Made by a program: the position numbers and the translations under genes
Source: Anaerolineales bacterium
Lineage (GTDB): Bacteria > Chloroflexota > Anaerolineae > Anaerolineales > Villigracilaceae
Direction: 5' to 3'
Assembly: GCA_025056175.1 (NCBI GenBank)
Contig: JANWWK010000003.1
Coordinates: 21,981 to 85,980, forward strand
DNA length: 64,000 nucleotides
The notes under the pieces: model-generated
Database searches by the model: none
What the model saw: the letters and a program-made list of their open reading frames with translations, nothing else
Told to the model about the DNA's origin: nothing
Shown here: piece by piece, positions 1,068-13,570 of the stretch
Layout: the number at the start of each line of letters is the position of its first letter
Numbering within the stretch: position 1 is the first letter of the stretch

Positions 1068-2000
1068 ATGAGATATTTCGTCATCGTCAACCCCATTTCG
1101 GGCCGCGGCCTGGGCGAAAAATCTATCCCAATCATCGAAAAGCGTTTGCAAGAAGAAAGAGTACCATACCACCTGGCGCGCACCGAGCGGCCCTGGCACG
1201 CCGCAGAACTGGCCGAGCAGGCCGCACGAGAAGGGTACGATGTCATCGTGAGCGCAAGCGGCGACGGGACCTTAAACGAAACCCTTAACGGCCTGATGCG
1301 CGCTCGTCAGGCCGGGTTCAATCATGCCGCTCTGGGGGTCATCGCCATTGGAACGGGAAATGATTTCGCGGGCGGAGTGGGCATTCCTGCCGATTTTGAA
1401 CGGAGTTTATCCATTCTGCTATCCAACAAACGCCGCAAAATAGATGTTGGCCTGGTGAAAGGCGGCAACTATCCGCAAGGACGTTTCTTCGGAAATGGTA
1501 TCGGCATCGGGTTCGATGCGGCTGTGGGTTTTGCAGCTCTGAAAGTACGCTTTTTGCGCGGGTTGCCAGCCTATCTGATTGGCGCTATTCAAACGGTCTT
1601 CTTCTACTACACTCCGCCACGCCTGCGAATCGAGCTGGACGGCGAGCCTATCGAGCAGTATTCGCTGATGGTTTCGATTATGAACGGTTACCGGATGGGA
1701 GGCGGCTTCCGTATGGCCCCGCACAGTCGTCCTGATGATGGGCTGTTCGACCTGTGCATTGCAGAACAGGCCAGCAAGTTGCGAATTTTTCAGTTGATTC
1801 CCATGTTCATTCAGGGGCAGCAAGAGGGACAGCCGGAAATCAAAATGCGGCGCGCGCGCCAGGTACGGGTGACAGCGCTGGAAGGCGATTTTCCCGCCCA
1901 TGCGGACGGGGAAACGCTTTGTACCAACGGCAAAGAATTGATGGTGGAGCTGCACGCAGGGGAACTGGAGGTGGTATGCGGAGCGGGAAGCACGGTCTAA
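1068..2000 (+). CDS. diacylglycerol kinase / YegS-BmrU family lipid kinase
   Basis: MRYFVIVNPISGRGLG start after GGAGGTGTT; SGDGTLNETLNGL and GTGNDFAGGVGIP motifs. Confidence 0.85.
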   Translation: MRYFVIVNPISGRGLGEKSIPIIEKRLQEERVPYHLARTERPWHAAELAEQAAREGYDVIVSASGDGTLNETLNGLMRARQAGFNHAALGVIAIGTGNDFAGGVGIPADFERSLSILLSNKRRKIDVGLVKGGNYPQGRFFGNGIGIGFDAAVGFAALKVRFLRGLPAYLIGAIQTVFFYYTPPRLRIELDGEPIEQYSLMVSIMNGYRMGGGFRMAPHSRPDDGLFDLCIAEQASKLRIFQLIPMFIQGQQEGQPEIKMRRARQVRVTALEGDFPAHADGETLCTNGKELMVELHAGELEVVCGAGSTV

Positions 2001-2008
2001 GGCTTGCC

Positions 2009-3031
2009 CTACCCCTCCAGGCGCAGCACCACTCTCGGACCCAGGCGGACACGACTACCGCGCGGCAAAGCACACGGGATGTTCGGCGGAATGGCGCCGC
2101 TTTCCAGAAACGTACCGTTCGTGCTTCCCAAATCTGTGATGGTAAATTGAGCCGTCGCCGGGTCGAAGTGAATTTCAGCATGACGGCGTGAAACATCGGC
2201 CTCACCACGCAATTGGGGCAGGTCTCGCCCCAGCAAGTAGGGGAAGGTGAACAATTCCAGGCGCTGACCCAGGTTGGTCGGCTGGCTGGCCTGTTCCACC
2301 ACCAGCGCAGGATGGGCAGACACGGGCGCAGGCACAGGAACAGGCGGCGCAGAGGGCGCAACCGGGGTGGAAGGGCGTGGAGAAGCAGCAGAGACCGGCT
2401 GACGTAAATCGGCGCCGGCTGGTGGATGGGTGAAGAAAGTGAAAGTCACTTTGTTGCGCCCAAACGCCAGTTTATCGCCAGATTTCAACTCCCGTCGCGC
2501 ATTTACCGGCACTTCCTTGCCGTTGAGCAGGACGGGGTTGTTCTCGGCCAGCACTTCGAGGTAATAACGTTCCTCCGAAACGATGAACTGCGCATGACGG
2601 CGTGAGATGGTCATGCCATCAGGAATAGATTGCACATTGACCGCCAGAGTCAGGTTATGGTCGGCTTCGTTGGTTGGACGCCCCAACACAGCAGGTTGCC
2701 AGGAAATCTCGAACAGCCGCCCGGTTTTCTCTTCCCGCAGGTACGCAAACTGTTCAGGCCGAAGTGGACGCCGTAAGGTTTGACGAATGTAGTCGAAGAC
2801 CAGTTCATCTTGTGGCTGGATGTCCAGCTGAATCAAGGTGTCGTCCGCTTTGAGTGGTCGGTCATCCCCCTTGAGGTAGATGGCATATTTTTCGGGAGCA
2901 TCGGCAGGGATGTCATCAAATTCTTTAAGAATTTCCCGAATCAGTTCACGGGGGGTAAGCGTACGGCGCACACGGGCGCGTTGACCAGTGTTCTCGAACA
3001 CATCAATTTTGACATCAATGTATTCATCCAT
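2009..3031 (-). CDS. EsaB/YukD-like ubiquitin-fold domain fused to two FHA domains (T7SS-associated)
   Basis: N-term about 85 aa ubiquitin-like (IDVKIDVFENTGQRARVRRTLTPRELIREILKEF...LKADDTLIQLDIQPQDELVF); FHA1 ISRRHAQFIV...LLNGKEV; FHA2 LGRDLPQ...VSRRHAEIHF...GSTNGTFLE; adjacent to EssC-like gene. Confidence 0.75.
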   Translation of the reverse strand: MDEYIDVKIDVFENTGQRARVRRTLTPRELIREILKEFDDIPADAPEKYAIYLKGDDRPLKADDTLIQLDIQPQDELVFDYIRQTLRRPLRPEQFAYLREEKTGRLFEISWQPAVLGRPTNEADHNLTLAVNVQSIPDGMTISRRHAQFIVSEERYYLEVLAENNPVLLNGKEVPVNARRELKSGDKLAFGRNKVTFTFFTHPPAGADLRQPVSAASPRPSTPVAPSAPPVPVPAPVSAHPALVVEQASQPTNLGQRLELFTFPYLLGRDLPQLRGEADVSRRHAEIHFDPATAQFTITDLGSTNGTFLESGAIPPNIPCALPRGSRVRLGPRVVLRLEG

Positions 3032-3037
3032 AGCGGC

Positions 3038-6000
3038 CTACTCCTTTTTTTCTTCGTCGAGCAAGCCCATCGCACGGGCGTTTTCGATGATGTCGGCATC
3101 CGAGAACAGGCCCAGCATGTCAGCAGGCAGGCCGTTTTCTACCAGTTTTTGTTTGAGCAAGGCGATGTTGTATTTCCCTATCTCGGTTTTGTTGGGGGGA
3201 GGAGCAGACGCAAAGGGCGCAGATTCGGTTTTGAGCCTGGTATACGGCTGTTCGTTCTCTGTGGCAGACGAGCCGGCTTCTGGAGAGGGCGCCAGCCAGT
3301 GTGCTTTTTGGTCGGGATAGCGCGCCTGAATTTTCCGCACCCAGGCATCCAGTGAACCCTCGATGTCGTCATCGCTGCCGTAAGGGGTTGCCAGTTGTAA
3401 CATGCTGGTTACGCCGGAACGGACGATAAAAGCCCGTCCCTGCGGTAGTTCCACATCGGCCAGGCTGCGCGGAAAGCGCCCGTTCAGACGACCAACCGCA
3501 TCGGCAGTTTTGAGCGCAATGCCAAAACTGGGTGCGGCAAATACTTTACGCAGGTCATCGGAAGCACTCAGAATTGCCAGCGAACCGCCGATAATCAGGT
3601 ACACGCCTTCGGTTTGGTATTTTCGCACCAGCGCAGCCATGTTCTCAAAGAAACTCATCTTCTTGCGGCTGGCTTCTTCGGTAAAGGCATCGTAATTGTC
3701 AATAAAGACCATGATTTTTCGGCGTTTGGGGTGAGCCTCGAAATCAGCGCATTCGACTTCCATATTTTCATACCAGGCATCCAGCTGCTCGATGTCGTCA
3801 ATGGTTTGGACAACGTGCGGCAGGTCAGCCAGCGAGGTCTCGCTGCCTTTCCATAATTTTCGTGAGAAATCTACCAGCACCATCATAACTTCATCGGGCG
3901 AATAGTTAAAGGCAATCGAAAGCAGCATAGTGCGCAGAGTGGTGGTCTTGCCGGAGAATGGCTGCCCAATGACAACCATGTGCGGTCCCTGCCGTTCAAT
4001 GTCAATCAGCGCCGGTTCAAGCGAACGGTCGTCAATCCCCATTACCGCGTTGAGACGGCGCACTTCAGGCAGAGTCGCCTGCTGGAGGACATTTTCAAGC
4101 GAAACGCGCAGCGGCAGGGTTTCGATGGTGGAGGGACGTTCGCCTTTCCAGCCATCGGCCCATAGCTCTTTCATCCGCACACACATCCGATTAATTTTCG
4201 CCAGCCCATCGGGGTCGTTTTCTTCAGGCGCAAAGGTCAGTGCCGTCTGAAATTCAAGCGGCGTGTTCCCCACGCGCACGTAGCCGCGTCCAGGGATGGG
4301 ACTCAAATCTGCCGGAACGCCGCGTCCCACGACTTCGGCGTATTCGGAGGGGTCCGAAAGCTTCAGAGTGAAACGTTCAGTAATCAGGTTATAGAGTTTT
4401 CCAGTCAACGCATTCGGCAGGTCAGCGGAAATCAGAAAATGAACGCCATACGCACGCGATTCGCGCACGAGTGAGATGAGTGGTCCCATCAGACCGTCGT
4501 AGTATTCTTTGAATTCTGCAAAGTTATCAATTACCACCAGCACGGCAGGAAGAGGGCGTTCAGGATGTGCCAGGTTGTACGAATCCAGGCTATTGACGCG
4601 GGCTTCACTGAACAAAACCTGCCGATGGTCAATGATGTCATTGACCTTACGGAGAACGCGCAAAACGCGCTCTTCTTCTTCCGAAGTAATCACCGCGCCG
4701 ACGTGCGGCAAGTCGCGCAGGATGGTGAGCGCGCGTCCGCCAAAATCCAAAATATAGATATGGAGTTCATCAGGTGAATGCGTCAGCGCCAGGCTGGTAA
4801 TGACCGTACGCAGGAACGTGGTTTTGCCGCGCCCCGAAGCACCGAAGATGACCGCATGACCATTGGGGAAATCAATTTTGAGCGGCTTCTGACTGGCCTG
4901 GTAGGGATTGTCAATCACCCCCACCAGTGGACGCATCGCCGTCTTGCCCCAGCCGGCGCCTTCCCAGCGGAATTCGTCCTCCCAAAAAGTCAGGGCTTTT
5001 TCATTGAGCGCGAAGCCGCTCACCTTGTGCGAATCAGAGGCGCGCAAGAGTTCAATATCGGCATCGGACATGTAAGCCGTATCAAGCGGGGAGTGCAGGG
5101 TGAGAACATTTGCTCCCGTTTGGGTTGGCAAAAATTGCGGCCAGGGCCGCCACTGCGGCTTAGATTCTTGCGTGGCAAGCCCGGCGAGCATTTCGACAAT
5201 GACATCATACAATTTGGGCGGTTCGGTAGACTTCTGTCCACCCGTTTTACGTGGTCGGTCAAGCCAGATGACGTTGGGAGTCACGTTTTCTTCCTGCGGG
5301 CCTTTGTAATCGCCGCCGGTGTAAGCAGTTTGAATCAATTCAATGTTCTCATTGCCAATTTGCAAATAGCCGCGTCCCGGAATACCAGGCGGGAGAAACG
5401 CCGCATCGGGTCGGCGCAACACTTCGCGGCTGTCATCGGGAGTTTCCACACGCAGGGAAATACGGAATTTGATGTTGGCGCGCATCTGGTCAGTGACCCC
5501 CACCGGACGCTGCGCCGCCAGGATGAGCGACACTCCCAGCGCCCGCCCCAGACGGGTGATGCTTTCGAGTTGCGCCCGGAATTCAGGGTTGCCCGAAATC
5601 ATCTCGGCGAATTCGTCAATGATAATGAAGAGATGCGGATAAGGCGGGCGTTCCGGGTCCAGGTGCAATCCCTTTTTTCGGTAGTGAACGATGTCTTTAG
5701 AGTTGGTGTAGGTGTTCAGGCGCTGGCGACGGTCGAGTTCTGCGATGATGGAGGCAAACACACGTGCAGTGGCCGATTGGTCCAGGTTGGAAACAATGTC
5801 CACCGCGTGCGGCAGGCGCTTAAAGGGCTCAAAAGCTGCACCACCCTTGTAATCTACCAGGACGAAGTTGAGCGCATCGGGACTGAAGTTGAGCGCCAAA
5901 CCGATGACCAGTGTCATCAACAGTTCAGATTTGCCCGAACCGGTAGAACCGGCGATGATGCCATGCACGCCATCGGCTTTGGCCGAGAAGGTTAACACGC

Positions 6001-7597
6001 GCGGTTCATTCCCCGAAAGCAAACCCACCGCCGTGTAAGGCCAATCGGCGGTGGCAGGGTTCGTGCTGCGCCGCCAGTTTTCGCGGGCAAACTCCTGCAT
6101 TTCGTCTATGGATTGCAGGTTGAGCATTTCCATCAGGGTCACAGTCGCTGCCAGGCTGGAGCCATAGCCGCGGCGAATATCTACCGGTTCGAGCGCGCGT
6201 GAGAACTCACGGGCTTTTTCCTGCGTAGAGACCAGTTTCGTCGTCCCAACATACCGCACGGTGTTGAACCCGGTTTCTGCATAGCGAAAAACAGCAGACT
6301 CTTCATCCGCAGGGTCATCATCTACTTCGATGATAGCCGAACAGCGACTGGGAACCTTCGCACGTTCGGGAACCAGGAAGATAATGCCCGCGCCCAATTT
6401 TTGGCCGTCCATGAGAATTGTGGAAATGGCGGCCTCGCCTTCCAGGTCACGCAGGCACGACCACTCCGGCGCCGGCGTGCGTACATCCACTACCACCAAC
6501 AAGAAGGGCAGTTTTACATCTGCGCCGCTTTCTTTGTCTTGCAGGCGCATCCGGCGGCGCTCCAACAGGGTGCGAATGTTCTTCCAGAACAATCTCATGC
6601 GGTCAGGTTCATTTTCGCCGGGACGTTCTTCGCTCTCAAAGAGCAGCGTTTCGGTTTTATCGGCTTCTTTGCAGTGGGGAAGGGCGTACGCCCAGCGCCA
6701 GTAGGGACGTGCGGCATTTGTGCCAGCGACGTAAAGCATGGTATCTTGCGGAGAATGGAACGCGGCGTAATCTACCAGCATAGTTCGCAGGTAAGCATGG
6801 ACTTTTTCAGTCGAAGAGCCGGTAATGCCGATAGAATGCCGGACGGTGATTCCCTTAGATTCTTGCGTTTCTTCTTTGGGCGCGCCCTCGCCCTGCTGTT
6901 GCTCTTGCTTTTTTTCCACTTTCTTCTTCTGGCTGTCATCGGAGGGCAGGTACACTGGCACGGTTACCGGCACGTTGTAGAGCAGGCGCGAGTCTTCGGC
7001 CAGGCGCACGGCTTCACGCATAAGCGGATTTTCAGTTTTTTCGTTTTCGGAAATTTTGTAAATGACAGTCGAGGCACGGGTGCTGATTCCCAGCCGTAAA
7101 TGCAGAAAGTCATGGTCGGTGGGGCGACGCTCCCACAGCCGCGTGCCGGAGCGGATGGCTTCCTGCCGGGCCTCCGGTGAGCGCGTCAGGTCGGCAGCAA
7201 TACCGAGCGTTTTTTCGGGGTTGGGGTAGTTGTAAAAATAATAAATGCGCTGTTGTTCGTGTTCGCTTTCCATCTTACGGCGCAGTTCGCTGATTCGGCG
7301 TTTGTAGGCGGCTTCGGCCTGTTCGCGCTGTTTGCGTTCCTGCGTATGGGTGTAAATTGCCAGCGCCACCGTGCCAACCACCGAGAGCGCCATCGGTATC
7401 ATCATCAACAGATTGCGTCCCTGTCCAAAAAAAGACATCAAAATATAGCCCAGAATCATCATCATCGGCAAAAAAGCCTGCTGAAGCAGCTGTCCGTAGT
7501 TCTCCTGGTTATCGGGTGGGTTTGGAACGGAATATACCCCCGAAGGGAGTTGCGGCTCAATGCGCGGCGGGCGGTCAATATAGATTTTCTCTGCCAT
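3038..7597 (-). CDS. type VII secretion EssC/EccC-type FtsK/SpoIIIE ATPase with three ATPase domains
   Basis: 1519 aa; two N-terminal TM helices; Walker A motifs GSTGSGKSE, GASGRGKTT, GQPFSGKTT; FtsK features VDYKGGAAFEPFKRLPHAV and LAAQRPVGVTDQMRANIKFRISLRV. Confidence 0.92.
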   Translation of the reverse strand: MAEKIYIDRPPRIEPQLPSGVYSVPNPPDNQENYGQLLQQAFLPMMMILGYILMSFFGQGRNLLMMIPMALSVVGTVALAIYTHTQERKQREQAEAAYKRRISELRRKMESEHEQQRIYYFYNYPNPEKTLGIAADLTRSPEARQEAIRSGTRLWERRPTDHDFLHLRLGISTRASTVIYKISENEKTENPLMREAVRLAEDSRLLYNVPVTVPVYLPSDDSQKKKVEKKQEQQQGEGAPKEETQESKGITVRHSIGITGSSTEKVHAYLRTMLVDYAAFHSPQDTMLYVAGTNAARPYWRWAYALPHCKEADKTETLLFESEERPGENEPDRMRLFWKNIRTLLERRRMRLQDKESGADVKLPFLLVVVDVRTPAPEWSCLRDLEGEAAISTILMDGQKLGAGIIFLVPERAKVPSRCSAIIEVDDDPADEESAVFRYAETGFNTVRYVGTTKLVSTQEKAREFSRALEPVDIRRGYGSSLAATVTLMEMLNLQSIDEMQEFARENWRRSTNPATADWPYTAVGLLSGNEPRVLTFSAKADGVHGIIAGSTGSGKSELLMTLVIGLALNFSPDALNFVLVDYKGGAAFEPFKRLPHAVDIVSNLDQSATARVFASIIAELDRRQRLNTYTNSKDIVHYRKKGLHLDPERPPYPHLFIIIDEFAEMISGNPEFRAQLESITRLGRALGVSLILAAQRPVGVTDQMRANIKFRISLRVETPDDSREVLRRPDAAFLPPGIPGRGYLQIGNENIELIQTAYTGGDYKGPQEENVTPNVIWLDRPRKTGGQKSTEPPKLYDVIVEMLAGLATQESKPQWRPWPQFLPTQTGANVLTLHSPLDTAYMSDADIELLRASDSHKVSGFALNEKALTFWEDEFRWEGAGWGKTAMRPLVGVIDNPYQASQKPLKIDFPNGHAVIFGASGRGKTTFLRTVITSLALTHSPDELHIYILDFGGRALTILRDLPHVGAVITSEEEERVLRVLRKVNDIIDHRQVLFSEARVNSLDSYNLAHPERPLPAVLVVIDNFAEFKEYYDGLMGPLISLVRESRAYGVHFLISADLPNALTGKLYNLITERFTLKLSDPSEYAEVVGRGVPADLSPIPGRGYVRVGNTPLEFQTALTFAPEENDPDGLAKINRMCVRMKELWADGWKGERPSTIETLPLRVSLENVLQQATLPEVRRLNAVMGIDDRSLEPALIDIERQGPHMVVIGQPFSGKTTTLRTMLLSIAFNYSPDEVMMVLVDFSRKLWKGSETSLADLPHVVQTIDDIEQLDAWYENMEVECADFEAHPKRRKIMVFIDNYDAFTEEASRKKMSFFENMAALVRKYQTEGVYLIIGGSLAILSASDDLRKVFAAPSFGIALKTADAVGRLNGRFPRSLADVELPQGRAFIVRSGVTSMLQLATPYGSDDDIEGSLDAWVRKIQARYPDQKAHWLAPSPEAGSSATENEQPYTRLKTESAPFASAPPPNKTEIGKYNIALLKQKLVENGLPADMLGLFSDADIIENARAMGLLDEEKKE

Positions 7598-7614: not shown

Positions 7615-8685
7615 TCAAGGGACGGTCGCCACAGCGAACATTAACAAGAGCGAAATTGCCAGCAACGAAGCCAGGATGATGAACACCATGCGCCAGTTAA
7701 CCCCGCGCGGCTTCTTTTCTGCCGGGATGGGCGGAAAATTCGGCTGAAGCGCCCGCACGAACGCCAGGACATCCGGAAAACGCTGGCTAACCTGCTGGCT
7801 GACCGCCTTTTCGGCAATAGCGGGGATGTTTTTCAAGTCAATGCGACCGGTGGGGGGCGGCTCTGTCTGCAACACACTCTTTAACACAGCGTCATCTTTT
7901 TTGAGATGATACGGATAAGCCGGATGACCCTTGAGCATTTCATACAAAATCAACCCCATGCCATAAACATCGGTGGCCGGTCCCACCGCGCCTTTCGTGC
8001 CATCCAGCATCTCCGGCGCGGTATAGGCAGGGAGGTTATAGTTTGGATTCCACATCTCAAAGACGGCGTTTCCTGAAGCGCTCACGCCCAAATCGAGCAG
8101 CATAGGGCGCGGAATACCTTGCTTATCGAAGCGCACCAGCACCACATCGGGATTGAGACACAAATGCAGCCGCCCGGCTTTGTGCAGATACAAAATTACA
8201 TCGGCGATGCTCAAAATAATCCAGCCAGCGTGCTGAAACCAGGGCTGAGGATTGCGAAGCAAAAGGTTACGCAAAATGACGCCATCCGCATATCGGAAGA
8301 CTTCATAATACTTCACCCGTCCGTTAATCACCGTCCAGCCGTAAGGATATGCCGTTACCGAGCCTTGCGGATGGGCCGGAAGTAACACCGGAAGAAGCGG
8401 ATGCTGACCAGCGCGCGCCAGCGTGAGAAAAGCTTTGGCTTCTGAGCGCAGCTTCTCTTCACAGCCCACATTGGCAATTTTGAGCAACACTTCTTCGTCA
8501 CCGCGCCGGGCATGATACACGATAGCGGAGCGGGTCACCACAATCGGCTGCACAATTTCGATAGGGCCAAACCATTCCCCATTATCGAAAATCTCGGTGG
8601 CGTTTTCTGCCGGGCAATAGGTTTCCTGACACCACAAATTGAAATCTTGCGAAATGACGTTGCACTTCTGGCAGATACGCTTCAT
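7615..8685 (-). CDS. protein kinase-fold protein, predicted pseudokinase, with N-terminal CxxC zinc-ribbon-like motif and C-terminal TM helix
   Basis: VLLKIAN (Lys retained), YLHKAGRLHLCLNPDVVLV in place of HRDLKPEN, LLDLGVSAS in place of DFG, APE motif (YTAPEML); C-term MVFIILASLLAISLLLMFAVATV TM; between WXG100 genes and EssC-like gene. Confidence 0.8.
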   Translation of the reverse strand: MKRICQKCNVISQDFNLWCQETYCPAENATEIFDNGEWFGPIEIVQPIVVTRSAIVYHARRGDEEVLLKIANVGCEEKLRSEAKAFLTLARAGQHPLLPVLLPAHPQGSVTAYPYGWTVINGRVKYYEVFRYADGVILRNLLLRNPQPWFQHAGWIILSIADVILYLHKAGRLHLCLNPDVVLVRFDKQGIPRPMLLDLGVSASGNAVFEMWNPNYNLPAYTAPEMLDGTKGAVGPATDVYGMGLILYEMLKGHPAYPYHLKKDDAVLKSVLQTEPPPTGRIDLKNIPAIAEKAVSQQVSQRFPDVLAFVRALQPNFPPIPAEKKPRGVNWRMVFIILASLLAISLLLMFAVATVP

Positions 8686-8713
8686 AGCACCTCGCAAAAC
8701 AAGTTCAGCCAAA

Positions 8714-9148: not shown

Positions 9149-9478
9149 TCAAAAAATCTGCGAGAAGACATCGAACAGAGATTGTGCCTGTGAGGCGGCT
9201 TGCCTACCGGCCTGATTCATGCGGTCTTGCGCTTTTTTGAGAGCGTCGGCATAACCGTTATTGACGTTCATAATGTTGACCAGCATGGGAATGACCTCAG
9301 AGGTCATCTCATTCACAAAACGGGTCGCGCCATCGCCTTTCCAAATGCCGCCCACCACCTGTTGAACCAGCGCGCGTAAAGGTGCAGTCACGGCATCTTC
9401 AATGATGCGCACCTGTTGCAAAATCTGGCTGATGATATTGCCCACCAGGTCGTCCACAAATTTGAACAGTCCAAACAT
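9149..9478 (-). CDS. WXG100-family protein
   Basis: 109 aa, central IWKGDGATRFVNEM (WxG) motif, helix-turn-helix hairpin. Confidence 0.75.
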   Translation of the reverse strand: MFGLFKFVDDLVGNIISQILQQVRIIEDAVTAPLRALVQQVVGGIWKGDGATRFVNEMTSEVIPMLVNIMNVNNGYADALKKAQDRMNQAGRQAASQAQSLFDVFSQIF

Positions 9479-9488
9479 AGGTCACCTC

Positions 9489-9779
9489 CTAGAAATTGCC
9501 CCCGGCTTTCTGGTCGGCGGCGCGCATATCGGCAATGGCCTGCTTGATGTCGTTGGCAACTTCCTGATATTTGGCGCTTAATTTGGTCACGCGCTGAAAG
9601 AATACTCCCAACGCCTGTACATACGCTTCGCCAGGTTCGCCCAGCAGCGCGCCATTTTGCATCTGCCCGGCAATTTTGCGGGAAATCGCTGCCGTCTGAT
9701 TCAAACGCTGCGCCACCATTTCGCAATGCTTTGCCATATCCTCCAGAGCAGGATAATTGACGCGAATTCGGTCTGACAT
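9489..9779 (-). CDS. WXG100-family-like protein (divergent, LGEPGEAY in place of WxG)
   Basis: 96 aa, IRVNYPALEDMAKHCEMVAQRL N-term typical of family. Confidence 0.7.
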   Translation of the reverse strand: MSDRIRVNYPALEDMAKHCEMVAQRLNQTAAISRKIAGQMQNGALLGEPGEAYVQALGVFFQRVTKLSAKYQEVANDIKQAIADMRAADQKAGGNF

Positions 9780-9800: not shown

Positions 9801-10109
9801 TTACGCGCCGATATTGTTGAAGAAACCCCTGGTCTCTTCATCGGCAGAGCGAATGATTTGGACAATTTGCGAAGCCACCTTACCGGCCACATCAAGCGCA
9901 TGAACCATCTTCTGATGTGCAGGCAGAACCGTGCCGTTCATTTCGTTAAAGAACTGGTCTGCACCCTGGCCGACCCAGCCATCGCCGTGCAGAGCATCCA
10001 CTTTCGATTTGGTCTGTTGGAGAAGCGCGCGGTGTTCCTGCTCCTCCGCTTCCAACAATTTGATGATGCCCTGCATTTCATCGTAATTGACTTGAAGCAA
10101 TCCAGCCAT
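9801..10109 (-). CDS. WXG100-family protein
   Basis: 102 aa, LLQVNYDEMQGIIKLLEAEE...DGWVGQGADQFFNEMNGTVLP. Confidence 0.88.
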   Translation of the reverse strand: MAGLLQVNYDEMQGIIKLLEAEEQEHRALLQQTKSKVDALHGDGWVGQGADQFFNEMNGTVLPAHQKMVHALDVAGKVASQIVQIIRSADEETRGFFNNIGA

Positions 10110-10220: not shown

Positions 10221-11141
10221 TCAATCTTTGTCCTTTTTGGCATCCTTGATGGCTTTGGCTGCCGCGCCTGCTGCGGCACTACCAGCCACGCCGGCCACAC
10301 CAGCCGCCGCTGCGCCCGTGCCTGGCGAGGATGTCTGAACGGCTTCGCCAGAACTACCGCCGCCAGGTGACGGTGACGGCGGCGTGGCACCACCGCCAGC
10401 ACTACCACCACTGCCAAACAGGTGGTCAGGCAGGTCTTCAGGCGCACGCGAACCAACCGAAGCCGATTGCGAAGTCTGGTCTACCATGCCGGCGCCCATC
10501 CCTTTCAGGTCGCCGCGTAAGCCCTCACTGCTGGTTGCACTGCTGCCACCTCCACCACCGCCGCCAGCAGGGGTTGTTTGCGTTTCAGGGGTCTTACCAC
10601 CCCCCTTACCGCCTTCCTGGTCGCCACCGCCACCCCGTTCAAACTCCTGCGAACCAGAAGAAGATTCGGGCGAGGGAGTCTGTGTGTTACCGGTTTCACT
10701 GCCCGGCACTTCCGGTCTCTGCGTGACAGCCTCGAATTCCGAAGCGCCGAAATCACCACCTAAACCACCTTCTCCGCTATCGCCCGGCACACGCCCCAAC
10801 ACCGCTTCAAAGCCCGAAGCGCCGAAATCCTCACCACTCTGAAACTCGTTTTTGAAGAAATTGGCATTTTCTTCGTCCGCTTCACGGATAATTTTCACAA
10901 TTTTCATGAGAACGTCTTGCGCAAAGAAATGCGCTTTCGAAACCCGCATCAGCGCCGGGAGCAAATCCTGTTCCATTTCAGCGAAGAATTTTTCCGCTGC
11001 TTCGCCAGCCCAATCTTTGCGTAAATTTTGCAATCGCAAACGGGTCGCAGTGAGCAGTTGGGCAAAATCTTCGCCTTCGCCGTTGAACGTTTTGACAATA
11101 GCGTCCAATTCGTCATACTTGAGTTGAAGAATCCGGGACAT
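10221..11141 (-). CDS. WXG100-domain protein with long Gly/Pro/Ser-rich C-terminal extension
   Basis: MSRILQLKYDELDAIVKTF...KDWAGEAAEKFFAEMEQDLLP WXG100 domain followed by about 200 aa low-complexity tail. Confidence 0.85.
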   Translation of the reverse strand: MSRILQLKYDELDAIVKTFNGEGEDFAQLLTATRLRLQNLRKDWAGEAAEKFFAEMEQDLLPALMRVSKAHFFAQDVLMKIVKIIREADEENANFFKNEFQSGEDFGASGFEAVLGRVPGDSGEGGLGGDFGASEFEAVTQRPEVPGSETGNTQTPSPESSSGSQEFERGGGGDQEGGKGGGKTPETQTTPAGGGGGGGSSATSSEGLRGDLKGMGAGMVDQTSQSASVGSRAPEDLPDHLFGSGGSAGGGATPPSPSPGGGSSGEAVQTSSPGTGAAAAGVAGVAGSAAAGAAAKAIKDAKKDKD

Positions 11142-11151
11142 AAGACTTCCC

Positions 11152-13452
11152 TCAACTGACCTCGAAACGAACGGATACATTCGGTCCAAAATGAATCACT
11201 GCGCCTTGCCGAAGCGAGACAGGCTGTCCGGGACGAATACGCTGCCCGTCAACAAACGTGCCGTTACTGCTGCCAAAATCGGTAATCAGATACACCTGGC
11301 GCACGGCATCGAAAGAAATTTCGGCATGGCGGCGAGAGATGTTGGGTTCTTTAAGAACCAGATTGCCTTCCACACGTCCAATCACAAACGGCAAAGGTTG
11401 TAAAGGAAGCCGGGCATCGAGCGCCAGTTCCGGCGGTGATTTGACGATGGTCAACGAAGCCGGTGGTCTGCTAACCGGAACAGCGAGCAGGGTGGCTTGT
11501 GAAGCGGGCGGCGCAATCAACGTCGCATCCGCCGAAGCAGACGCAGAAGGAGCGGGGGACACTAAAGGCGGACGAGATGCCTGCGAAGCAGGCGCAGATG
11601 ACGAAGTCGCCGGTTTACGCGCAGACAAGGGTTCTTCATCGGCAATCGGCAGAGAGGCACCAGAAGGCACTCCGTCTGCCAGTTTGCCGCCGAGCCGACC
11701 CTGCAAAACCGGTGTGCCGGTAAGTGTCTTTTCGCGCCGCGAGGAATACATCATGAACCCCACCACCCCAAGAAGAATTGCCACAATCATGAACAGAATA
11801 ACCGGCGCAGCTACCAGGGCTGCCACCAGCACCTGAACAAGATTGGGGCGCACGGCCTGATAGACGACGCCGGCGAATTGAGCAGTGTTGTACACCTGTC
11901 CATCTTTACCGAGAACGCGCACAAACAGGGTGTACTTACCATCCGGCACTTTGGATTGACTGAGCGGCACGATGATTTGCCCTGTGCTGGCGCTCTCGGC
12001 AGGGGCGGTGAAGTCAGAGCCTTCCACTTTGGTGTTCGTGGCTTCATCCACCAGCCAGCCATCGAACCCGCCAATCAGCGCAGGGTTGGTGGTTTTGATG
12101 GAAAGCACCAGGTCATTGTTCTTAATCGAAACTGCCTGCACCGTCACCGAAGGCAAAACCGCGCTGGGGTCGAACAGGAACTCGTGCGTGATGACGGTGA
12201 AGCGCTTGCCTTCGGCATTCGTGAACCAGGCAAAGGGGCGTTTATCCTCCTTACTGATGGCGCTGATGCGTAACTGATAATCGCGTCCGGGCGTCATTTG
12301 CGAGGTAGAAATGTTGAAAACGTTATTTTGCTGGAGCGAATCAAACGTAAATTCGGCCACTTTCAAGCCGCCCTTGACATCCCACACCTCTATCTTGACG
12401 TATTCGACCTGTTCAGGCGAAGTCATCGAGAGTTGAATGTCATAAGTCAGGTTTTCTGGCACAAACTGCAAGCCAGCGAACTGTCCTTTCACCGGACTGG
12501 GTGGCCCTTCGTAATCCGTTTCCGAATTGATAGAAAAACTGACACTCAACGTTTCTTTATCATTCAAATTAAGCGTCAGCACCACCGGGTTACTGCCTTG
12601 TTTGGGATAAACCTCCGCCTGCACCATCCATTGCGCCTTCAGACCATCCATAATCGCCTGAAACGCCTGCGAGATGTCCTCTCTTTGGGCAATGGTTGAG
12701 AACCCACCCGTGCTGGCAGCCATCCCTTTGAGTTCCACCTCATTCAGGTTGGACTCTTTGGAAGCCAACCCAATGGTATTTATGGGAATCTGCGTCTTTT
12801 GAGCAAACTCGGTGACTTCCATGAACGTCTTCTTGCTGCACGGTTGATTCGGCACGAAGGTTTCATCCCGTCCATCAGCAAACAGGATGATAGCCCGGCG
12901 GCCCGGCGGTGCTTTTTGCAAACTTTCTGCTGCTGTAAACAGGGCGTCATACAAACAGGTTTCCTTGCTGGCGGCCTGATATTGGTCAATCGCAAAGTTC
13001 ACAGCAGAGATATTCTGCGTAAAGTCTTGCAGCAATCGAATTTCGGAATTGAACTGCACCACCGAGAAAAAGGCATTATCGGGCGTGTTGTTGAGCGCTG
13101 CTTTGGCCGCACGGCGAACATCCGGCACGGCACGTATCATCGTGCCGCTGGCATCCAGCAGAAAGACAATATAAATCGGCACATCTGGTTTCTGCACTCG
13201 TGTATCAGCAAAGAAATTCACCCCCGGCAAATCTATCCGCGCCGTTTCGGCCAGCGTCTCCACCACCGGCAGGCCAGTCTTCGGGTCGTAGATGTTGTAG
13301 TACACCTTGAGCGTCATCGCTTCGGGCGTTTCGACCGTCACGATCTGACTGATTCGAATCGCCAATCCCGATTGCGCTTGAACCACCGCCACCGGAGACA
13401 AAAACAGCCCACACACGAGCAACCACAAGACCAACCGCTTGCCAGCCTGCAT
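11152..13452 (-). CDS. secreted VWA domain, TM helix, cytoplasmic FHA domain protein
   Basis: Signal peptide MQAGKRLVLWLLVCGLFLSPVAVVQAQ; VWA IYIVFLLDASGTMIRAV...IILFADGRDE; TM LVQVLVAALVAAPVILFMIVAILLGVVGFMMY; C-term FHA FVIGRVEGNLVLKEPNISRRHAEI...DFGSSNGTFVDGQRI. Confidence 0.88.
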   Translation of the reverse strand: MQAGKRLVLWLLVCGLFLSPVAVVQAQSGLAIRISQIVTVETPEAMTLKVYYNIYDPKTGLPVVETLAETARIDLPGVNFFADTRVQKPDVPIYIVFLLDASGTMIRAVPDVRRAAKAALNNTPDNAFFSVVQFNSEIRLLQDFTQNISAVNFAIDQYQAASKETCLYDALFTAAESLQKAPPGRRAIILFADGRDETFVPNQPCSKKTFMEVTEFAQKTQIPINTIGLASKESNLNEVELKGMAASTGGFSTIAQREDISQAFQAIMDGLKAQWMVQAEVYPKQGSNPVVLTLNLNDKETLSVSFSINSETDYEGPPSPVKGQFAGLQFVPENLTYDIQLSMTSPEQVEYVKIEVWDVKGGLKVAEFTFDSLQQNNVFNISTSQMTPGRDYQLRISAISKEDKRPFAWFTNAEGKRFTVITHEFLFDPSAVLPSVTVQAVSIKNNDLVLSIKTTNPALIGGFDGWLVDEATNTKVEGSDFTAPAESASTGQIIVPLSQSKVPDGKYTLFVRVLGKDGQVYNTAQFAGVVYQAVRPNLVQVLVAALVAAPVILFMIVAILLGVVGFMMYSSRREKTLTGTPVLQGRLGGKLADGVPSGASLPIADEEPLSARKPATSSSAPASQASRPPLVSPAPSASASADATLIAPPASQATLLAVPVSRPPASLTIVKSPPELALDARLPLQPLPFVIGRVEGNLVLKEPNISRRHAEISFDAVRQVYLITDFGSSNGTFVDGQRIRPGQPVSLRQGAVIHFGPNVSVRFEVS

Positions 13453-13570
13453 TCGAGCGCCTCCCAAAAACTACCAAGCAAAACAGACATTACTTATCAA
13501 AATTGTAAGGATTGGAAGTATCTGTTTCTATCCCCCAAAAGGTTGTATTTGCAAAACAAGCCCCACTGAC

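Follow-up and report, generated by a model that had tools for sequence, protein, structure and literature searches.

The window analysed here, a 64,000-nucleotide stretch of DNA from a Chloroflexota bacterium of the order Anaerolineales, contains a type VII secretion system (T7SS) operon whose last gene encodes a 340-aa protein with an unusual architecture: a YukD/EsaB-type ubiquitin-like (Ubl) domain followed by two FHA domains. The gene lies next to that of an EssC motor devoid of FHA domains. We propose, with a probability of about 0.5, that this protein is a soluble assembly or regulatory adaptor that links the motor of Chloroflexota T7SSs to a pseudokinase or to a phosphothreonine partner.

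The ORF was confirmed at positions 3031-2009 of the minus strand, exactly where the original prediction had placed it, and it closes a tight minus-strand run of genes extending from 13467 to 2009. This run encodes, in order, a VWA-FHA protein, five WXG100 or WXG100-like proteins, a pseudokinase with a C-terminal TM helix, EssC and the YukD-FHA-FHA protein. The features, listed from the 3′ end of the run, are:

2009..3031, minus strand: candidate YukD(Ubl)-FHA1-FHA2 adaptor protein, 340 aa (ORF, PF00498, ribosome-binding site)
2777..3031, minus strand: YukD/EsaB-like ubiquitin-fold domain, residues 1-85 (PF08817 in 7/10 orthologues, hhalign 93%, AlphaFold and Foldseek)
2432..2749, minus strand: FHA1, about residues 95-200 (PF00498; inherited with the fusion; G of the NG motif replaced by P)
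2027..2284, minus strand: FHA2, about residues 250-335 (PF00498; GR..SRRH..STNG; later addition, related to VWA-FHA)
3038..7597, minus strand: EssC/EccC-type FtsK motor, 1519 aa (TIGR03928, TIGR03925, YukB/EccC structures; three Walker A motifs)
7615..8712, minus strand: zinc-ribbon-like N-terminus, PknB-related pseudokinase and C-terminal TM helix, 365 aa
8833..9129, minus strand: WXG100-like protein, 98 aa (weak PF06013/TIGR03930 matches, under cut-off)
9149..9478, minus strand: WXG100-like protein, 109 aa (weak matches, under cut-off)
9489..9779, minus strand: WXG100 protein, 96 aa (PF06013 27.4 bits, just above cut-off; TIGR03930 39.6 bits)
9801..10109, minus strand: WXG100 protein, 102 aa (PF06013 45.9 bits and TIGR03930 52.2 bits, above cut-off)
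10221..11144, minus strand: WXG100 protein with a long Gly/Ser/Pro-rich tail, 307 aa (TIGR03930 48 bits, above cut-off)
11152..13467, minus strand: secreted or membrane VWA domain, TM helix and C-terminal FHA, 771 aa (PF13519/PF00092, PF00498)

Intergenic gaps within the run measure 6-21 bp, save two of 111 and 120 bp. The ATG of the YukD-FHA-FHA gene is located 6 bp past the essC stop and its ribosome-binding site (AAAGGAG) falls inside the last codons of essC, which suggests that translation of the two genes is probably coupled. Two of the five WXG100-like proteins score above the TIGR03930 cut-off. The VWA protein has a predicted signal peptide, a TM helix and a cytoplasmic C-terminal FHA domain, and it is kept in related T7SS loci; it may be an outward-facing component where EsaA is absent.

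The 340-aa protein consists of a ubiquitin fold (~residues 1-85), FHA1 (~95-200), a Pro/Ala-rich linker and FHA2 (~250-335). Taken alone, the window sequence is suggestive of YukD: the YukD profile PF08817 matched the whole protein with 19.5 bits (E=0.0017) and the N-terminal domain with 22.7 bits (E=1.7e-4), both below the cut-off of 27 bits, and PDB searches with the N-terminal domain, single-sequence as well as profile, did not find YukD. These low scores would be expected if the resemblance were due to chance and the protein were an ordinary FHA protein encoded near a T7SS. We consider this highly improbable given the orthologues and the modelled structure. Indeed, PF08817 was matched by seven of ten orthologous N-terminal domains scanned singly (best E=4.7e-7), and the other families that these domains matched were mostly ubiquitin-like, each in at most three members. 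Using hhalign, the ten domains were aligned to 13 independent Chloroflexota YukD domains scoring over the cut-off with a probability of 93% (E=3.1e-7). The AlphaFold2 model of the 90-aa N-terminal domain (pLDDT 83, pTM 0.70) presents strands at residues 4-11 and 14-22, a helix at 27-37 and strands at 49-53 and 76-81, i.e., the beta-beta-alpha-beta-beta order of a beta-grasp. Foldseek matches of this model included SUMO and ubiquitin (probability 1.00, E down to 3.8e-6) as well as EccD5 of ESX-5, through its cytosolic ubiquitin-like domain (7npt, E=1e-5). Finally, YukD passes the Pfam cut-off in a second YukD-FHA protein (199 aa) encoded at locus L009 on contig C2 of the same genome, and in another YukD-FHA protein at locus L094. 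Together, orthologues, profile-profile comparison, model and structural matches settle the assignment to the YukD type at the level of sequence and predicted fold.

With the PF08817 matches in orthologues, the predicted fold and two PF00498 domains, the original prediction of a YukD-like domain ahead of two FHA domains in a separate polypeptide was borne out, including the profile match on which it had staked the N-terminal domain. The protein resembles EsaB/YukD (T7SSb; TsxB in T7SSc and T7SSe-j) in its ubiquitin-fold domain, its similarity to PF08817, its YukD-type sequence and the position of its gene beside EssC, but the known form, as in T7SSb, is a free protein of about 80-100 aa, whereas the Chloroflexota form is fused to FHA.

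PF00498 matched the protein in two stretches (E=5.1e-24). FHA2 possesses a complete phosphothreonine motif (SRRHAEI..GSTNGTF), whereas FHA1 (SRRHAQF..NNPVLLNG) keeps GR, S, RRH and N with NP instead of NG. In the FHA tree, FHA1 grouped with the FHA1 of the orthologues (support 99/98) and then with the type-B proteins of L009 and L094 (99/99). FHA2 grouped with the FHA of VWA-FHA proteins, including the one encoded in the same operon (99/99), and with a remnant at locus L012. The orthologues have FHA1 only, and this includes the closest full orthologue, at locus L050 of Anaerolineaceae bacterium NAT124, which presents a single FHA. The structures nearest to FHA2 by Foldseek and phmmer were DgcB, GarA/OdhI and FhaA, and the EssC FHA was not among the best matches of either search. 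The single-FHA orthologue and the grouping of FHA2 with VWA-FHA indicate that FHA2 is a later, lineage-specific addition, whose source is probably the VWA-FHA gene of the same operon. The same evidence rejects the possibility that the two FHA domains represent the FHA1-FHA2 pair of EssC moved as a block. The L012 remnant (1498-1890, minus strand) is a lone 130-aa ORF, 72% identical over the linker and FHA2, from a genome of the same family (G096). Type-A EssC was not found beside it, and it is probably what remains of a T7SS locus that was lost.

The motor of the window matched TIGR03928 with 712 bits (cut-off 778), TIGR03925 with 374 bits (above cut-off) and the YukB/EccC structures. It has three Walker A motifs and is a multi-FtsK membrane motor of the EccC/EssC type, which, like the WXG100 proteins of the locus, marks the system as type VII. 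Its N-terminus comprises about 40 residues followed by hydrophobic helices, and the Pfam profile search of the 1519-aa protein found no FHA in this region, in agreement with the prediction of a motor that opens with TM helices. The original interpretation, in which the FHA domains were relocated, holds in part. A YukD-FHA polypeptide beside an FHA-less motor is present and conserved, but neither a move away from the motor nor a transplanted EssC pair was supported. Indeed, an N-terminal FHA was found on only two (L138 and L157) of about 80 Chloroflexota EssC frames, and FHA-less motors are also known in T7SSa, c, g and h (PMC11217815), so that the direction of any FHA move is not established. 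FHA in trans is the rule in Chloroflexota.

In a sample of 301 Chloroflexota genomes, 61 had a strong EssC. YukD-FHA proteins of type A were found in 15 genomes, including that of the window, from at least two classes: Anaerolineae MAGs, Herpetosiphon species, Oscillochloris and Chloroflexales ZM16-3. In 15/15 genomes the gene immediately follows an FHA-less essC in the same orientation, at a distance of -16 to +115 bp, and a weak type-A match occupies the same place at a sixteenth locus (L178). The fusion is conserved in relatives, a point that the original prediction had proposed to check. Orthologues of the window protein are 206-231 aa long vs 340 aa. The gene order at L050 is the same as in the window, with VWA-FHA, four WXG100, pseudokinase, EssC and YukD-FHA. 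Outside Chloroflexota, one genome-contig scan, sensitive to close relatives only, returned no YukD-FHA fusion.

Beside the YukD-FHA gene of Herpetosiphon and relatives we observed giant EssC proteins of 2847-2958 aa, most of which have seven Walker A motifs; the D1-D2 pair occurs three times in tandem before D3 (L042 735-9605, plus; L047 10154-18769, minus; L051 1206-9983, plus; L052 1345-9888, plus; L055 1024-9900, plus). In contrast, EssC of the window and of L050 has the ordinary three Walker A motifs.

Other Chloroflexota loci presented different arrangements. At the 12 loci of type C, which adjoin essC directly or nearly so, YukD is combined with a strongly degenerate FHA; other loci encode a free YukD beside an FHA-less motor; and at L158 and L183 a separate FHA protein is encoded beside essC with YukD slightly further off. 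Among the approximately 80 EssC frames, one (L114, genome G084) carries an N-terminal YukD (PF08817, 38.7 bits). These varied arrangements indicate that Ubl and FHA modules have been shuffled around a constant motor in Chloroflexota. In the L114 protein (1327-5799, minus strand), YukD is fused straight to the N-terminus of EssC. The motors of L138 (1000-5373, minus) and L157 (3130-7461, plus) carry one N-terminal FHA after about 90-100 residues, and these preceding residues may be ubiquitin-like: hhalign of this region against YukD scored 20.4 vs a shuffle maximum of 17.5 (200 shuffles), but with a probability of 10%.

The kinase-like protein of the operon (8712-7615, minus strand) has PknB-type kinases as its best profile match. 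The HRD Asp required of an active Ser/Thr kinase is replaced (HLCLNP), while Lys78 and DLG are kept. Across six aligned homologues, C, A, G or N stands in place of the catalytic Asp in 6/6, the VAIK Lys is kept in 6/6 and the DFG-type Asp is also kept. A homologue adjoins EssC in most loci that have flanking sequence. The window pseudokinase did not match the EssB/YukC model (TIGR03926), and the only matches to this model genome-wide were at chance level (13.1 and 9.3 bits, both canonical kinases on contig C2), so an EssB encoded in this genome was rejected. The genome likewise gave no match to the EsaA model (TIGR03929) and a single chance-level match (14.2 bits) to the EccD model (PF19053). 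By component list, the system is therefore neither T7SSb, with its EssC N-terminal FHA, EssB/YukC and EsaA, nor T7SSa.

Nevertheless, comparison with known systems offers several parallels. As in T7SSb, an FHA and a membrane-anchored pseudokinase surround the same motor, but here the FHA is in trans on a Ubl protein, FHA2 keeps the phosphothreonine motif and the pseudokinase, unlike EssB, has a short tail after its TM helix; its equivalence to EssB would be one of analogy. EccD of T7SSa likewise has a Ubl fused to another module, which is a multi-TM bundle rather than an FHA. Component J of T7SSe/f/j is a separate FHA protein with DUF6382 instead of YukD, and T7SSh (TshA/B/C/G/M), by its description, has a kinase-like TshM with one C-terminal TM beside an FHA-less TshC but a free TsxB; these subtypes are reported in Bacillota only (PMC11217815). 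The T7SSa-j survey, which covers Bacillota and Actinomycetota only, describes free TsxB/EsaB, Ubl fused to EccD and separate DUF6382-FHA, and no YukD-FHA fusion (PMC11217815). In the classic survey of ubiquitin folds, the sole YukD fusion is an actinobacterial YukD-membrane protein (PMC1779556). Searches of open-access full texts yielded no paper describing a YukD-FHA fusion or the T7SS architecture of Chloroflexota, which is weak evidence of absence.

We suggest that the YukD-type Ubl docks on the cytoplasmic part of FHA-less EssC, much as the EccD Ubl does on the first ATPase domain of EccC, and it is plausible by this analogy that the Ubl keeps the FHA at the motor. The FHA part would replace in trans the N-terminal FHAs of Bacillota EssC and hold the membrane-anchored pseudokinase to the motor in an EssB/YukC-like role; in the window's lineage, the canonical FHA2 probably adds phosphothreonine-dependent binding. 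This adaptor reading is supported by the YukD-type fold, the invariable position of the gene 3′ of FHA-less essC, the operon order at L050 and the catalytically altered pseudokinases beside EssC, and the fusion at L114 ties the Ubl to the motor. EssC-EssB contact in T7SSb does not depend on phosphorylation and involves FHA domains that lack the phosphothreonine motif. The complete motif of FHA2 counts against an EssB-like bridge, as does the best match of the pseudokinase to PknB-type kinases. Experimental precedents for both docking contacts, which we infer, exist: the FHA region of B. subtilis YukB copurifies with the YukC pseudokinase independently of phosphorylation (PMC9600267), and in ESX-5 the EccD Ubl touches the first ATPase domain (NBD1) of EccC, as cited in PMC11217815.

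In B. subtilis two-hybrid assays, YukD interacted with YueC and, weakly, with YukC, but showed no binding to YukB (PMC9600267); the docking site of the Ubl may therefore lie elsewhere than on the motor. This would fit an EsaB-like substrate or assembly factor whose partners are WXG100 substrates or the VWA-FHA membrane protein, the proximity of FHA and motor being incidental. The kinship of FHA2 with the FHA of VWA-FHA could then mean a common partner. We regard this as improbable, since the gene is tightly and exclusively adjacent to essC in 15 genomes and YukD is fused to EssC at L114.

Alternatively, the FHA domains might act as a phospho-switch without any fixed bridge, reading Thr phosphorylation by an active Hanks-type kinase elsewhere in the cell and gating secretion on a signal. 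PpkA/Fha control of type VI systems provides a model for this. The phosphothreonine motifs are complete in FHA2 and in the type-B FHA of the second locus, the nearest folds are phosphothreonine-binding FHAs (DgcB with phosphopeptide, GarA, OdhI, FhaA), L009 is flanked by kinases whose HRD and DFG motifs are intact, and phospho-control has been suggested for some T7SS subtypes (PMC11217815). We nevertheless find this possibility the less convincing one: the sole kinase of the operon is catalytically degenerate, and FHA1, which is common to all orthologues, lacks the G of NG and, in Herpetosiphon, also the H of SRRH. The strong degeneration of type-C FHAs further indicates that phosphothreonine binding is not the conserved trait.

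Returning to the adaptor reading, its broader form is tentative: Chloroflexota might possess a distinct T7SS subtype whose Ubl and FHA form one exchangeable module, free as YukD-FHA here and with parts fused to the motor elsewhere (YukD-EssC in L114, FHA-EssC in L138 and L157), that couples the motor, including the giants with seven ATPase domains, to the pseudokinase and may be tuned by phosphorylation. What EsaB/YukD and the EssC FHA domains do in T7SSs is in both cases unsettled, and a natural YukD-FHA fusion near an FHA-less motor and a pseudokinase suggests that both act at one interface. The soluble protein offers a handle for studying FHA-pseudokinase and Ubl-motor contacts. These loci also extend T7SS diversity to Chloroflexota, a phylum outside the T7SSa-j survey (PMC11217815).

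The second T7SS locus of the same genome (L009, 3494-10976) is different. It encodes WXG100 and an EssC of 1358 aa whose Walker motifs are degenerate. Next come a 345-aa WXG protein that has a hydrophobic pair at its C-terminus and a 271-aa protein with no match in Pfam, and a further WXG100 precedes the YukD-FHA protein. Other YukD fusions were observed in Chloroflexota. Genomes from the same family or order as the window encode YukD fused to an E2 ubiquitin-conjugating-enzyme-like domain (PF00179), next to a free YukD gene (L095 2490-3326, minus; L097 1987-2889, plus), an arrangement more suggestive of a bacterial ubiquitin-like pathway than of a T7SS. Finally, YukD is fused to WD40 repeats at L109 (653-2188, minus) and to a ParA/MinD-like ATPase at L082 (445-1740, minus).
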